Shown here piece after piece: positions 14,140-52,362 of a DNA stretch of 64,000 bases (the stretch's first letter is position 1; each line of letters begins with the position of its first letter). The notes beneath the pieces are model-generated. The model was not told where the DNA came from, did no database searches, and was given only the letters and a program-made list of their open reading frames with translations. The position numbers and the translations under genes were made by a program. This DNA is from Limisphaerales bacterium (GTDB taxonomy: Bacteria; Verrucomicrobiota; Verrucomicrobiia; Limisphaerales; AAA164-E04), in contig JAMASS010000004.1 of assembly GCA_024761205.1 (NCBI GenBank), positions 496,001-560,000 on the forward strand, read 5' to 3'.

Positions 14140-14345
14140 GATAAGACTTCACGGGTATTCAGCCAACGACCAACGCACCCGATAGAAGCCAAGAGACGGC
14201 ACCGTGCTCACAATAATAAAACGTTTTTCAAAAAGAGCCGCGCCTTCAGGAAACCATTCCCACGGCCCCGTAACAGAGCCCGCGTGATCTAAAAAAACCA
14301 TTCATCCAGGTAACTTTTGCCTCCGTATCACTGATCAATTCAACC
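14140..14345 (-). pseudogene. Degraded member of a small 'WMNG...SLAGPW' secreted family (distal gene of module A)
   Basis: Reverse-strand fragments in shifted frames (TWMNGFF / GSVTGPWEWFPEGAALFEKRFIIVSTVPSLG) match the ORF at 41854-42261 (SWMNGILQHAESLAGPWCDVEDSRNSEVFFHERKTITVSTIPSLG). Confidence 0.5.
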
Positions 14346-14855
14346 TCAAAAAATGGAACGGACCCAATAAAAGAAGAGTTCGAGAAAAATTACGAAGAAA
14401 CAACATCCTGTACGGCATCTCGCCTTGACTATTGGCAACGGCAATTTGAGCGCCGGCTAAAACCAGCGTTTTCACCATTTCCTTGTTGCCATTCGCAATC
14501 GCCTGATGCAAAAGCATGTCACCGCTAATAGTTATATAATTAACGTCCGCGCCCGCTTCAATCAGCAGCTTGGCAATCTCATTCGCTTTGGCTTCACGCT
14601 TCATCTGGGCGGCTTGATATAAAGGCATATAATTATAGCGGACGTTTGGCGGATCGATCTGTCTCGCCAAGGCACTTCCACGTCCGCCTCAGCTTCAATC
14701 AACGCCTTTGCCCACTCCACGTCCCCGCAAAAAATCGCTTCGTGCAAGGGATCACCGGGGCGCACCCGATAAAAAGGGGATCCTCGTCCGACAAAACGGC
14801 AACCGTTGGTTACCAGCAAAACATCGCCAGAGAACAGAGCAGAGATTTCATGTGC
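14335..14855 (-). pseudogene. Ankyrin-repeat protein with signal peptide, frameshifted
   Basis: MKSLLCSLAMFCW*, then DPLHEAIFCGDVEWAKALIEAEADV and AKLLIEAGADVNYITISGDMLLHQAIANGNKEMVKTLVLAGAQI in different frames. Confidence 0.75.
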
Positions 14856-16680: not shown

Positions 16681-16813
16681 TTTGATTCGCTTTTTGTTCG
16701 ACTGCTTCTGTCTTACAGTCAATGGCTTGATGCGAATGGAGCGTTACTCAACTCACCGGCGCCGGGCCGTTGATAGTAACTTTGCAGGTAAAAGCAAGGT
16801 ATCCCGATTGTTT

Positions 16814-17058
16814 GCCTGAATCCCGGAGGAGAGTTGCGACCTCTCCTCCGGTTACTTCGATTCAGGCTGTTGTATTGAGCGGGCAACCCGACATCGAGTC
16901 ACCTACAAAATTACTATCAAGAGAGAAAGTAAGGGTGGCCAAGGGCGGCCAAGAGTGACGTCAACCGGAAGAATCACTTTTTCGCATTTTTTTCTTGGCG
17001 TCAAAGGCGAGACCAGGACGACCGAAAAGAGGTCAAAAATCGCCATTTATCAGTGTTG
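16814..17058 (-). promoter_or_regulatory. Conserved nested-hairpin element, copy A
   Basis: GCCTGAATC[CCGGAGGAGAG-TTGCGAC-CTCTCCTCCGG]TTACTTC-GATTCAGGC, flank conserved with copy B at 45425-45645. Confidence 0.65.
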
Positions 17059-17173
17059 TATCGGTGGGGTTACCTTGGTATTCCGGTGTTGTGTACCGCC
17101 TAGGCTGGCCGTCCGCACGTCTTGTCGGGCGCGTATGGCTTTGGTGGGGTGTCTGCCGAGCCTCCATCAAGAC

Positions 17174-43105: not shown

Positions 43106-44275
43106 TCAATCTCCTCCGCTGAGTGCCTTGTCAAGCGCTTCCAACGGCACGTAGACGGTACCATCCTCCTCCATCTCCAGTGGGATGATTTCCCCCTCCT
43201 CCGTGATCATCCCGCCGAAGAAGTCGTCGCCGGCAATCACCGGTTTGCCGTCCGCGGCCAGCAACTCGCCCTTCGGCCCGATGAGATTGCCCTTCCGTTT
43301 GCTCGGCGTTTGCGGTGGCGATTGTTCAAACAATTCCGGCCAGTGTTTCTTCAAGTAGGGGTCGCCTTCACGGATGCGCCGGGACAAGCCTCTCTCCGCC
43401 TTCGCCATCCATTTGTTGTAAGACACCTGCCAACCCGCGTAAGGCACCAAAGGCGAATCGCCGGGGCGTAAAGCCTTCGAAGCGTCGCCGTCAATGCCCA
43501 TATTGGAATCGGGCAGCGCGTCCAACCCTTGAATCTCGGATGCCAGTCGGTCGAAAATCGCCGCCACCTCCTTCTGCGTGTACATCTTCTCCTTGTCCGG
43601 CCAGTGCTTCGGCTGGTAAAGACTGGTGCACACGCTGTCTCGGCAGGCTTTCGCCTCGCCAGCGTAGGTGCGGGGTTTTCCCGTCTCCATGCTAATAGAG
43701 GGTTCGTAGTAAAAGTAGAGTTGTCCCGTCTGCTTGTTGGTCCGGACTCCGGCTATGTGGCTCAGCACTTTTTCCGGATCATCATTCATGAACTGATGAT
43801 AGTTGCTAAGGTCCCGAAAGATGCGGCCAACCTCAATCGGGTTGTCGTGCCGGTCGTATTCCTTGAGGATGTGGTAGAGTTGCTCGAATTGCGGCGTGAA
43901 TCTGGCCTCGCTCCGGAAAAAACTCGTCAGGAAACCGTGATTGTTTCTAATCTCGACCGCGCGCGGATGATTCGGGTCAAAGACCACCGCCGGGTCGGTG
44001 GTCTGCTTGTAGGGGAAATTGGCCTTCCAGTTGGCCAACCGCTCCGCTTCCGCCTTTTCCGCCCGTGCGGCCGCCTTGGCCTGCAGCCGATCAAACGCCG
44101 AATTGCCCGCTGCAGAAGATTGCGTCTCGCTTGATTTCCCGGCTTCAGGGGCCGCCGGTTGCTTGCCCTTGCCGTCCCGAAAAAAAAGAAGCGCAGCCGC
44201 CAGCACAGCCAGAGCGCCGGCCAGCATGATTTTCCTTTTGCCGGCAAGAGGAGGTGAATCGTTTGAGTCTTTCAT
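43106..44275 (-). CDS. Orphan single-TM/secreted protein (module B)
   Basis: MKDSNDSPPLAGKRKIMLAGALAVLAAALLFF..., long intact ORF; no family recognised. Confidence 0.65.
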   Translation of the reverse strand: MKDSNDSPPLAGKRKIMLAGALAVLAAALLFFRDGKGKQPAAPEAGKSSETQSSAAGNSAFDRLQAKAAARAEKAEAERLANWKANFPYKQTTDPAVVFDPNHPRAVEIRNNHGFLTSFFRSEARFTPQFEQLYHILKEYDRHDNPIEVGRIFRDLSNYHQFMNDDPEKVLSHIAGVRTNKQTGQLYFYYEPSISMETGKPRTYAGEAKACRDSVCTSLYQPKHWPDKEKMYTQKEVAAIFDRLASEIQGLDALPDSNMGIDGDASKALRPGDSPLVPYAGWQVSYNKWMAKAERGLSRRIREGDPYLKKHWPELFEQSPPQTPSKRKGNLIGPKGELLAADGKPVIAGDDFFGGMITEEGEIIPLEMEEDGTVYVPLEALDKALSGGD

Positions 44276-45309
44276 GGTTGTTCCAGTGTGGTGGTCGTTT
44301 GTTGCCTCTCCCAGAGGATGTAATTCTTTGCGAACCAAGGCTTCACTTCCCGGGCTCGCCAGCGCAAGGTGCTGCTGCCCATCACGGCGCGTTCGATCAG
44401 TTTGGTGTTTTTGGTCAGCAAATACAACCGCTCACTGTCGTCGTGCGTTGCGCTGAGTGTTTCGGTTTTAAATTGCCGATCCTTCTGCTCAAACTCATCC
44501 CACACGCCTTCGCCCGCAATGCCGCCCCGGTATACCATGTCCGCCAAACGATACCACACTCTCGCCTGGTATTTCTGACCGTTCATCAGGCGATTGTCGG
44601 TGCTGCTGATAGTGGACACCAGTTTGTAGCCGGTAGTGATTTTGACAGTCCCTCCCCGATAGAGATAGACGCCTTCTCGGGGATAGTAAGGCACACCAAC
44701 GTCTTCGCTGTATTTTTTTCTGACCGTCATCCACTGCCGGAAGGAATATGCAGACAAGTAATCCCCGCCGGAATCATGCTCGGGGCCTTGTCCCAAGTAT
44801 TTTTCTTCAATCGGATCGCCTTCCTCCCAGTCCGGATCCGCCAAGACGCGCCCATACTCCATGTCAAAGGACTCGGTCCACTGATCGCTGTCGTGGTTGT
44901 AAAGGCTGTCGAGTTCGTAGGTGGTAGCCTCCGTCCATTCCCCACTCCCCTCGACGATCTTATGATATTTGCGCGAGTTGACGTTGACCAGTCTCGGATT
45001 GGCGAGAATGTGGCCGTTCATCGCGCCGGTTACGAGGATATTGTTCCCGGTCAACTCGTCGTAGATGTAGTTGGCGATCACTCCAGAGCCAACCCCGCTG
45101 CCAATTCCAGGTCCGATTGGCGGTCTTGGATTTGCCGGCAGACGCCCCTGCGCTTGCGCGGTGGACATGAGGACGGACACATGCATCAGCAGCAAGACCG
45201 TCGCAAAGATTTCGGTTGTCGAGGTCTTCCCAAGGTAGCTGTGAAGTGCCTTGAGTGTTGCGTGGCCGGCGCGCTTCAGTGCCGACAATAAGAAATGTAT
45301 GAACTTCAT
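44272..45309 (-). CDS. Orphan secreted protein (first gene of module B)
   Basis: 345 aa ORF with signal sequence and GPGIGSGVGSGVIANYIYDELTGNN; overlaps the next gene by 4 nt. Confidence 0.65.
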   Translation of the reverse strand: MKFIHFLLSALKRAGHATLKALHSYLGKTSTTEIFATVLLLMHVSVLMSTAQAQGRLPANPRPPIGPGIGSGVGSGVIANYIYDELTGNNILVTGAMNGHILANPRLVNVNSRKYHKIVEGSGEWTEATTYELDSLYNHDSDQWTESFDMEYGRVLADPDWEEGDPIEEKYLGQGPEHDSGGDYLSAYSFRQWMTVRKKYSEDVGVPYYPREGVYLYRGGTVKITTGYKLVSTISSTDNRLMNGQKYQARVWYRLADMVYRGGIAGEGVWDEFEQKDRQFKTETLSATHDDSERLYLLTKNTKLIERAVMGSSTLRWRAREVKPWFAKNYILWERQQTTTTLEQP

Positions 45310-45424
45310 TGTCTTGTATTTTTATAATCGTATCATCATTTTCCGACAATGACCGGACGCAAAGACGCCGGGCCTTTGTTCACGTTCTGCAGCTTTTTGG
45401 ATTGCGGAAAGTCCCCGCCGTTTC

Positions 45425-45645
45425 GCCTGAGCATTAGGGAAGTTGTACGGCTTCCCTAATGCTTTTGATTCAGGCTCTTGTATAGGGCGAGCGGCCCGAC
45501 ATTAAGCGAACCACAAAACGTGAACAGCTGAATACTTAACGGAAGAACAGGCGGCGGATCAAGTATTTTTTTCAATTTTTTGCCGACGAGAGAGTTCCGA
45601 CGAGAGGCGAAAACGCTCGAAAACAGTCCTTCATTGGTGTTGTAT
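45425..45645 (-). promoter_or_regulatory. Conserved nested-hairpin element, copy B
   Basis: GCCTG[AGCATTAGGGAAG-TTGTACGG-CTTCCCTAATGCT]TTTGATT-CAGGC; right flank GATTCAGGCTCTTGTATAGGGCGAGCGGCCCGACATTAAG matches copy A. Confidence 0.65.
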
Positions 45646-45665
45646 AGCGGATATTGCCGGCGCCG

Positions 45666-49890: not shown

Positions 49891-52362
49891 ATGATTGCTA
49901 AATATAATTTTGAGCTCCAATTATTTTATAGTTACAGCCATAAAGATTCTGGCTATAGAGAAGACATGGAAAAGGCATTAAAGAAACTAGAACACGATGG
50001 CTCTCTAACCAGTTGGCACGACGGAAAAATTCTTCCAGGGCAATCTATTTCTAATAAAATCAAAAAGAAATTAGAAAACTCCGACATAATCGTCTTTTTG
50101 ATGAGTCAAGATTTTATAGCCTCCAATGAGTGTAGGAAAGAATGGTCGGAAGCCTGCAATATCAAAGAAAAAAAACCACGAGTTGCCCTGGTTCCAGTCA
50201 TTTTAAAAGAATGTGCGTGGCGGGACATAAGAGGTATGAGTGACCTTAAAGCACTCCCGGAAGATGCAAAACCGGTAGCACAATTTGATTCTCCGGATAC
50301 TGCATGGCAACAGGTCTATGAAGGGATAAAGAATCTAACAGAAAAATTAGCAAAAGACTTTACACTCAAAGATGAATTCCGGAAGGAAGTAGAAAAAACG
50401 AAGTTTATTGCCCAAGAGCATATTTCTTTACAAGAGATATTCGTATTTCCACAGTTATCCTACGACATTGACTCATATCGTGATAAGTCGGTAAGGGATG
50501 TAGCGGAGTTGCTACGAAACGATCATGTATTAATATATGGAGAGCAGTTAAGTGGTAAGACTACTTTGTGTCGCCATTTATTTCTTACTTTGGTTGAGGA
50601 TGACAAACCTGTTATTTATATTGACTTGGAAACGGTAACTAGAAAAGCAAAATCAGAGCTTTTCCAGGAATTCTACCAGGAAGAGTTTCATGGTAACTAT
50701 ACTCAATGGGAAAAACAATCCGACAAGAAGAGCATTATACTTGATAACTTGACTAAAGATAAAATTAAATGCCTGTCGTTGGCTCAAGAACATTTTACAC
50801 AGATAATTGCAGTATTATCTTCAACTGAATTTTTTTCATATTTTAAAGATGAAAGTCAATTAGCGGAATTTAAGTTTTTAAAAATAAATCCGTTCACACA
50901 CGTCCAACAAGAACAATTAATCAAGAAAAGGGCACCACTATCTAATGCAGATCAATCAACTGCATCTATTGATATTCAAGTTGATAAAATAGAGGAAAAA
51001 ATCAACGCAGTGATGACTCAGCAGAAAATTATACCGAGATACCCTTTTTATATTCTTTCAATATTACAAACGTTAGAAGGGTTTATGCCTACCAACTTAA
51101 CTATTACGTCGTATGGTCATTGCTATCATGTCCTGATATTAAGCCATCTGATTAAGTCTGGTATTGAAAAAACCGATGACAAGACCAATATGTGCTTTAA
51201 CTTTTTAGAGCATTGGGCATTTGAGCAATATAAGCAAAACACCAAAAGCCATGAAGATGCAAGTATAGGAAGTAGATTTGAAGCGTTTATTTCCGGTTAT
51301 AAACCTAGGTTCATTATCAAAGACTCTATACTGAACAGACTAAAGCATCCAGAATATGGGCTGATTCGGAATGATGGCGAGTTTAGAGATCGCTATACCT
51401 ACTATTTTTTCTTAGGGAAATACCTAGCTAATTTAGATAACAAAGAGAACAAGGCAGTTATTCAGGACATACTTGAGCGAAGTTATACGCCATCCAATAG
51501 TTTAATATTGTTATTTATTATCCATCATACCTCCAGCGCTGACATTATTGATGATATTGTGCTTCAGTCTATGTGCACACTGGATAATTTGAAACCAGCC
51601 AAACTGGATAAAGAAGAAACACAAGAATTTGATAAATTAATTAATCAAATACCAGACAATGCTCTTTCCCAAGACTCTGCTGAATCTGAAAGAACACTAG
51701 AACGAGAGGGAAGAGATAGACAAGAAGAATATAGTGATTTGAGTGAAGATGAATCCGATGAGTCTATGACTGAGATGAACGATCTTTACAGACTCATGAA
51801 AAACAATGAAATCTTGGGGCAAGTTTTAAGTAACAGGCATGGCAATATGGAACGTAAAAAGCTCACTGAAATAATTGAAGCCGTTATGGATGGTGGTTTA
51901 CGTTTGGTTAGGAGATTTCTATTCGATCAGTCAGAAATAAATGCTTTTGCAGCATTTCTTCACGAACGCTATCCAGAAGAAAATCTTGAGGAGATCAAGC
52001 AATTGTTTAGATTTTTCAGCTTTATCTGGACAATATCTCATATTGAGAAAGCTGTCAGTGCATTGAATGAAAGGGAACTTAAACCACTGATTCAAAGCAT
52101 TATTGAAAAGAAAAAACATCCCGCCTATAAGTTAATCGATTATTTCTTACATTTAAGCTGGGTCGAAAAGCTTTCCAAAGATGATGCACAAGTACTTAAG
52201 CAGCTTTTACAAGATTATTCCTACCCTTTCATGAAACGCGTAATATCATTAAAAACACAACACTATATTAATACTCATCGTATTGATGCGCCGGTTGTAC
52301 AAAAAATTTGTTCATTGTTGGAAATTGAATACAAACCCAGATTGGGACTACGCAAAAATTGA
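49891..52362 (+). CDS. TIR domain - P-loop NTPase (STAND/NACHT-like), putative anti-phage immune protein
   Basis: LFYSYSHKDSGYREDMEKALKKLEHDGSLTSWHDGKILPGQ..IVFLMSQDFIASNECRKEWSEA; Walker A GEQLSGKTTL; AT-rich relative to surroundings. Confidence 0.88.
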   Translation: MIAKYNFELQLFYSYSHKDSGYREDMEKALKKLEHDGSLTSWHDGKILPGQSISNKIKKKLENSDIIVFLMSQDFIASNECRKEWSEACNIKEKKPRVALVPVILKECAWRDIRGMSDLKALPEDAKPVAQFDSPDTAWQQVYEGIKNLTEKLAKDFTLKDEFRKEVEKTKFIAQEHISLQEIFVFPQLSYDIDSYRDKSVRDVAELLRNDHVLIYGEQLSGKTTLCRHLFLTLVEDDKPVIYIDLETVTRKAKSELFQEFYQEEFHGNYTQWEKQSDKKSIILDNLTKDKIKCLSLAQEHFTQIIAVLSSTEFFSYFKDESQLAEFKFLKINPFTHVQQEQLIKKRAPLSNADQSTASIDIQVDKIEEKINAVMTQQKIIPRYPFYILSILQTLEGFMPTNLTITSYGHCYHVLILSHLIKSGIEKTDDKTNMCFNFLEHWAFEQYKQNTKSHEDASIGSRFEAFISGYKPRFIIKDSILNRLKHPEYGLIRNDGEFRDRYTYYFFLGKYLANLDNKENKAVIQDILERSYTPSNSLILLFIIHHTSSADIIDDIVLQSMCTLDNLKPAKLDKEETQEFDKLINQIPDNALSQDSAESERTLEREGRDRQEEYSDLSEDESDESMTEMNDLYRLMKNNEILGQVLSNRHGNMERKKLTEIIEAVMDGGLRLVRRFLFDQSEINAFAAFLHERYPEENLEEIKQLFRFFSFIWTISHIEKAVSALNERELKPLIQSIIEKKKHPAYKLIDYFLHLSWVEKLSKDDAQVLKQLLQDYSYPFMKRVISLKTQHYINTHRIDAPVVQKICSLLEIEYKPRLGLRKN

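Follow-up and report, generated by a model that had tools for sequence, protein, structure and literature searches.

The RNA sRNA-Xcc1 (Rfam family RF02221) is an 88-nt RNA that has been verified by Northern blotting and RACE in Xanthomonas (PMC2996969), where it is also found upstream of symE in integron cassettes (PMC12444791). Seven copies are present in Xylella (PMC12189769), and the title of a study by Chen et al. (2011), as cited in PMC12444791, describes a trans-acting sRNA under HrpG/HrpX. In the annotated loci from phages, plasmids and E. coli prophages that we inspected, an RF02221-like RNA lies directly before a gene on the same strand in 8/8 cases, and these genes code for Ant, KilA-N, BRO, ORF6N, AntA/B or hypothetical proteins. 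This placement directly upstream of antirepressor-type genes implies that RF02221 may itself be a cis-acting leader, and the known sRNA-Xcc1 is perhaps to be re-read as the 5' leader of phage antirepressor-type genes. Individual examples with Ant, BRO, KilA-N, ORF6N and AntA/B genes are our loci L218, L219, L222, L225, L226 and L227. Here we describe a related element from a 64,000-nucleotide stretch of the genome of a Limisphaerales bacterium (Verrucomicrobiota; contig JAMASS010000004.1, positions 496,001 to 560,000), which we call the window. Judged from sequence comparisons, the element is probably transcribed as a structured, cis-acting 5' leader of the downstream minus-strand gene and belongs to a divergent, enlarged branch of the sRNA-Xcc1 group.

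The initial annotation of the window had reported two nested hairpins, copies A and B, and every hairpin, loop and 7-nt bulge that it described is present in both. These hairpins are the apical part of a minus-strand RNA of about 160 nt; its outer covarying helix and pseudoknot had been overlooked, as had the identity of the minus strand as the functional one. Copy A spans positions 16760..16922 (RNA 5' end at 16922, 3' end at 16760; covariance model score 133.4 bits, E 2.6e-27) and copy B positions 45366..45529 (RNA 5' end at 45529; 141.8 bits, E 3.3e-29). The architecture comprises a long covarying base helix P1, a helix P2, a composite hairpin P3/P4, an internal loop, AAUACAACAG/GGCGAAUA, that is strongly conserved, and the pseudoknot GUCGGGUCG/CGGCCCGGC of 9 bp. 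Read 5' to 3', the order is P1, (A)UGUCGGGUYGCYYGYY, AAUACAACAG, P3 with its 7-nt bulge, a variable P4, a GGCGAAUA-type loop, the returning strand of P1 and CAACGGCCCGGC.

All parts are given here for the minus strand. In copy A the 20-nt arms of P1 lie at 16901..16920 and 16770..16789, an inverted repeat with 90% complementarity that forms a covarying helix in the family, and in copy B the 13-nt arms lie at 45514..45526 and 45377..45389 (inverted repeat I2, 92% complementary). The arms differ in sequence between the two copies with pairing retained, and the sequence of P1 varies freely among the aligned copies. The pseudoknot connects the junction of P1 and P2 with the nucleotides that immediately follow P1 on its 3' side; from the sequence and the pairing in the family, it joins GUCGGGUUG (16884..16892) to CGGCCCGGC (16761..16769) in copy A and GUCGGGCCG (45492..45500) to AGGCCCGGC (45367..45375) in copy B. 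P2 of copy A pairs CCCG (16880..16883) with CGGG (16803..16806), as indicated by the fold and by covariation in the family, and the core loop AAUACAACAG on the 5' side of the P2-P3 internal loop (16867..16876) is an exact match to a segment that is near-invariant across phyla. The P3/P4 hairpin, which is the part reported initially, occupies 16814..16867 in copy A (16814-16822, 16823-16833, loop 16834-16840, 16841-16851, bulge 16852-16858, 16859-16867), as defined by sequence and covariation. Its counterpart in copy B, defined by sequence and an inverted repeat, occupies 45425..45475 (45425-45429, 45430-45442, loop 45443-45450, 45451-45463, bulge 45464-45470, 45471-45475).

The matches noted earlier around the hairpins were also re-examined in this framework. 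The flanking 52 nt and GCCGGGCC are real matches within the RNA itself, representing its conserved core and a strand of its pseudoknot. Those to TTTTTTTC and GGAAGAA are likewise present but belong to the upstream A-tract/promoter region, and the TGTTGTAT match, present further out, is a separate motif, explained by a CACCGATACAACACCGGTG-like sequence upstream. In this motif, which is similar to the RNA core, ATACAACA lies within a small inverted repeat; the motif occurs in 9/51 copies, 110-155 nt upstream of P1, against a background of 0.005 per 300 nt; it is found on the minus strand at window positions 17056-17063 and about 45640-45650, and also at L057, L062, L063, L065, L066, L068 and L071.

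The RNA strand folds far better than shuffled sequences in both copies (-75.7 kcal/mol, z -7.9 for A; -66.1 kcal/mol, z -4.9 for B, with programs that cannot draw the pseudoknot), confirming that the hairpin is not a chance feature. Searching the window's own genome for the motif gave 23 places, of which inspection showed 20 to be real relatives, and a covariance model trained on this genome only (R1) recovered about 50 dispersed copies in its 4.94 Mb at E<=0.01, with matches of 155-163 nt. The two structured copies of the initial annotation are thus real but understate the family by a wide margin. The covariation signal is overwhelming. RNAalifold, run on 14 copies, returned 37 pairs, 25 of them with double changes. 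Among 50 distinct copies of the genome, 93.1% of the cells are paired against 28-47% in slid and 77% in shuffled controls, and 360 cells show double changes against 107 in shuffles. Across phyla the corresponding values are 94.7% of cells paired (96% for P1) and 794 double-change cells against 228; double changes affect 38/43 pairs, with 95% paired against 27-47% in slid controls. The pseudoknot helix had no place in the model; even so, pairing is kept in 93-97% of its cells (own genome and across phyla, respectively), and it too contains double changes, such as G-C to A-U and a perfect CCGGACCG/CGGUCCGG pairing in L088. Furthermore, G.U pairs greatly outnumber A.C mismatches both in the nested helices (294 vs 50) and in the pseudoknot (189 vs 17), which indicates that the minus-strand transcript is the functional molecule. 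The strong GC hairpins might by themselves suggest two unrelated, look-alike terminators. The roughly 50 structure-conserving homologues in the genome, together with 76 loci elsewhere that share the conserved loops and the pseudoknot, leave that reading practically no probability.

These outside loci came from a scan of GTDB representative genomes with the exact pattern TCGGGYYRCYYGN{2,5}ATACAAHAGYYY, for which we estimated 5.8 chance hits. It matched 82 stretches, equivalent to 80 loci, and R1 confirmed 76 of these, most at E 1e-17 to 1e-5; the other four (L104, L105, L146 and L162) were set aside as chance matches. The copies, 1-19 per genome in 24 outside genomes, are distributed over at least 8 phyla, with representatives in Gamma- and Alphaproteobacteria, Acidobacteriota, Gemmatimonadota, Nitrospirota, Nitrospinae, Poribacteria, Binatota and Chloroflexi. 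Nearly all the confirmed loci are in bins named like sponge-metagenome bins. Apart from the jk18x and SB0677 bins, we take these to come from sponge studies on the strength of their names, and the sponge link is hence one of naming. The jk18x bins were obtained from Ircinia sponges (PMC9531527), and SB0677 is reported from Great Barrier Reef sponges (PMC12203066). In random samples of two classes, matches were obtained in 19/290 genomes for the class of an alphaproteobacterial locus and in 3/229 for that of a gammaproteobacterial locus. Closer to the window the distribution is patchy: R1 found no copies in 39 relatives, 3 of them from the same genus, and a second covariance model found none in 286 other genomes of the class. 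A set of alphaproteobacterial loci (L189-L198) carries short copies of about 112 nt that lack P4, and by sequence these predicted RNAs are a bridge between the window's family and RF02221. Two such short copies are in a single-contig genome of 2,753,527 bp, presumably a free-living Puniceispirillum, which would mean that the wider group is not confined to sponges. Among viral contigs the strict pattern had no matches and a looser one had 7, none of which was confirmed by R2, a model built without any RF02221 member; a plasmid search with the protein downstream of copy B gave no match, and a literature search on sponge symbionts with riboswitches or structured RNA returned nothing relevant. At two loci, two copies of the RNA are arranged back to back in divergent orientation (L137 3595-3956; L133 81-884).

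In the other phyla a sigma70-like promoter adjoins P1, with TTGAC most frequent at -31 to -33 and a -10-like box some 10 nt ahead of P1. A GGAG ribosome site and then an ATG come after the RNA, the start codon usually at a distance of about 30-45 nt. In the window, a 20-copy alignment places a -35-like hexamer TTGATC at 45557..45562 (-), about 31 nt before P1 of copy B and hence at the usual spacing, and the alignment, together with position counts, places TTGACG at 16959..16964 (-), upstream of P1 of copy A at a longer spacing than usual. Copy A is followed by an ORF (L003; 16375..16680, minus strand, start hand-picked) with a signal-peptide-like N-terminus, MKSLNKALFWAFLTVAFFVDSTTSQAQ, and copy B by a gene for a 345-residue secreted orphan protein (44272..45309, minus strand) whose ATG is 57 nt after the RNA; neither product belongs to a Pfam family, and protein B shares about 24% identity with further RNA-linked proteins encoded there. 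The window additionally codes for a TIR-domain protein with a STAND-type NTPase (49891-52362, plus strand), likely a defence gene, and a small ankyrin-repeat ORF lies downstream of module A (14335-14670, minus strand).

With ORFs taken from simple calls, hydrophobic N-termini are found in 54/70 linked ORFs of the other phyla (77%) against 65/296 controls from the same loci (22%; MWU p 7e-13), and in the window's own genome in 26/42 against 77/260 (p 0.002). The idea that the copies precede secreted genes thus holds usually rather than always, as several lie before degenerate or non-secreted ORFs, and some in Alphaproteobacteria have housekeeping-like neighbours, for example IMP dehydrogenase and a methyltransferase. 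Few of 51 linked proteins have a Pfam family, and these are mostly surface or exported ones (CsgG, TbpB, SLH, OMP barrel, PEGA, DM9, SNase); AlphaFold models of 6 RNA-linked proteins had a mean pLDDT of 33 and were set aside. The strong link to hydrophobic N-termini over unrelated genes and phyla could mean that the RNA is an address on the mRNA, bound by a protein or the ribosome, which targets or times translation of signal-peptide genes and senses no metabolite. The phage and plasmid relatives stand before cytoplasmic antirepressor-type genes, and some alphaproteobacterial copies before cytoplasmic genes; export is therefore not the common denominator of the wider group, and we regard such an address as distinctly unlikely.

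Another alternative, to which we give a somewhat better but still low chance, is that the RNA is an independent trans-acting sRNA that lies upstream of secreted genes by chance and is perhaps processed from them. Its attraction is that the related RF02221 is a verified RNA of about 88 nt in Xanthomonas (PMC2996969), and that our element is likewise compact, with a strong terminal helix. Yet a ribosome site and gene start follow within tens of nucleotides in nearly all loci, including all eight RF02221-like ones, no intrinsic terminator was seen between RNA and gene in the sequences inspected, and about 50 copies with differing hairpin sequences in one genome would be odd for a trans regulator. 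By comparison, the role of a 5' leader RNA of the downstream minus-strand module, one of three offered by the initial annotation, is strongly supported by promoter placement, strand, G.U bias, covariation and the signal-peptide gene downstream. A leader function in cis is well supported by this comparative evidence.

Among paralogues, DNA similarity often breaks off at the 3' end of the RNA or inside the codons for the signal peptide, from which it follows that the part made up of promoter, leader and signal behaves as a unit. Within single genomes, different mature proteins follow an identical signal peptide, as though leader and signal had been shuffled onto new secreted proteins. Shared signal peptides with differing mature proteins were observed in unrelated phyla, at loci L098, L102, L112 and L152 of genome G040 and at L062, L065 and L068 of the window's own genome. 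Mobile or selfish DNA, in the form of a cassette of promoter, folded element and signal-peptide start whose structure serves its own transposition or recombination, might account for the roughly 50 copies, for their patchy distribution and for those paralogue pairs, several in number, that lose DNA similarity exactly at these points. The covariation, however, is one-stranded, rich in G.U and poor in A.C, and the promoter adjoins P1, all of which points to an RNA function. Moreover, the window's own genome has no match over the cut-off to the integron integrase TIGR02249 and only 2 weak Y1_Tnp matches, and there is no tRNA-linked insertion; insertion sites at tRNA genes were hinted at by 2 loci but proved not to be general. 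We consider this cassette reading improbable, and favor a leader that has been multiplied together with its promoter and signal-peptide start.

In the other phyla the pseudoknot 3' strand, GCCCGRC, has a second possible pairing partner, GYCGGGC, located a few nucleotides downstream. The duplex energy of this local hairpin is -13.67 against -12.17+-0.23 for swapped partners, and the two sides covary (CCGAC with GTCGG 15:0, CCGGC with GCCGG 26:9; Fisher p 5.8e-7, and p 5e-4 in high-GC copies alone). By rough median energies the pseudoknot (-14.6 kcal/mol) and the hairpin (-15.0 kcal/mol) are near-isoenergetic, and their mutual exclusion suggests the anatomy of a two-state switch in these phyla. 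In the window's own genome the alternative hairpin is unsupported (-10.17 vs -10.27 with swapped partners), and a switch of this kind may therefore be absent there. The ribosome site is outside the hairpin and sequestered in neither state, and an effect of the switch on translation is accordingly something we infer.

Comparison of the sequences shows an RNA that folds into P1, P2 and P3/P4 around the AAUACAACAG/GGCGAAUA loop, with the 9-bp pseudoknot in addition, and whose transcription would begin with the P1 5' strand or slightly ahead of it; most sponge-symbiont copies then have a ribosome site, followed by the beginning of a gene for a secreted or membrane protein. The conserved loop is a putative binding site for a ligand, be it a small molecule, a protein or the ribosome, and the pseudoknot 3' strand, because it pairs alternatively with a covarying downstream sequence in other phyla, may act as a switch, near the ribosome-binding site, between two states that exclude each other. 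In this way the leader would set the translation, or the stability, of secreted proteins in answer to a signal. Promoter, leader and signal-peptide start would have multiplied as a unit in the genome of the window, with the mature parts diverging or being exchanged. A more far-reaching scenario, which we offer tentatively and hold to be less probable than its failure, is that a phage/integron antirepressor leader gave rise to a pseudoknotted switch that has spread over sponge-symbiont phyla as a promoter-leader cassette, senses a signal of the sponge habitat and controls fast-diversifying secreted proteins. If one RNA does stand before unrelated secreted genes in many phyla of the same habitat, it would be an unusual example of an RNA regulon shared horizontally, and could provide a handle on how symbionts control their host-facing proteins.

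The element can be compared with several known systems. Integron attC sites, which the initial annotation had also considered, are similarly multi-copy and hold structure while sequence varies, and the relative sRNA-Xcc1 occurs in integron cassettes; here, in contrast, the copies are dispersed rather than in arrays, no integrase exceeds the cut-off, the one-strand covariation tolerates G.U but not A.C, and the layout is that of a promoter and an mRNA, so that an attC-like site is unlikely. The third role it had offered, a REP-like substrate of a Y1 transposase, draws on the resemblance to REP/RAYT systems with their many dispersed intergenic palindromes. Our element differs in being 4-8 times longer and in having a conserved unpaired core, a pseudoknot, a promoter and a fixed place before start codons, and Y1 transposases are too scarce in this genome to match the number of copies, which makes that role unlikely as well. 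With orphan riboswitch candidates it shares an aptamer-like conserved internal loop in a 5' leader, variable stems, a pseudoknot, a promoter at the base and, in other phyla, the downstream alternative hairpin. Unlike those, its ribosome site is not visibly masked, its genes share export rather than a pathway, it has no Rfam riboswitch match above threshold, and metabolite binding is putative here.

The closest system is RF02221. At the gathering score, Rfam searches of the window, 17 sponge loci and 19 alphaproteobacterial loci recovered tRNAs only, and RF02221 matched neither the window copies, even at E 5, nor any place in their genome. In a relaxed search, it matched at the same place and strand in L151 (E 1e-3) and L196 (E 2e-7), the intermediate alphaproteobacterial copies reaching 46-50 bits (E 2e-7 to 4e-8); the best score anywhere, 50.3 bits, is below the curated gathering score of 53. 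In the reverse direction, R2 matched the copy of phage Aaphi23 in register (E 4e-4). The RF02221 core AAUACAAYACC..GGGGAAUA in P2-P3 aligns in the same register, in both search directions, with the variant AAUACAACAGCC / GGCGAAUA found here, its outer UCGGG/CCCGG helix corresponds to GUCGGGUCG/CGGCCCGGC, 93-97% paired and pseudoknotted by P1, and both RNAs lie directly upstream of a same-strand gene. The two differ in length (155-163 nt here vs about 87 nt), in the extra variable P4 carried by P3, and in gene context, which is antirepressors or SymE there and secreted orphans here. Furthermore, where RF02221 forms a local hairpin from the 3' strands of P2 and the outer helix, our element has one of the P1 strands, whose pairing with the upstream strand converts the outer helix into a pseudoknot, a rewiring that RF02221 lacks. 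As core, outer helix and leader position agree while score, length and hairpin do not, the element is kin of RF02221 and not a member. On this comparison, the predicted RNA is a new pseudoknotted and expanded cross-phylum variant within the sRNA-Xcc1 group, set apart by its rewired pseudoknot, the additional helix and its new gene context.
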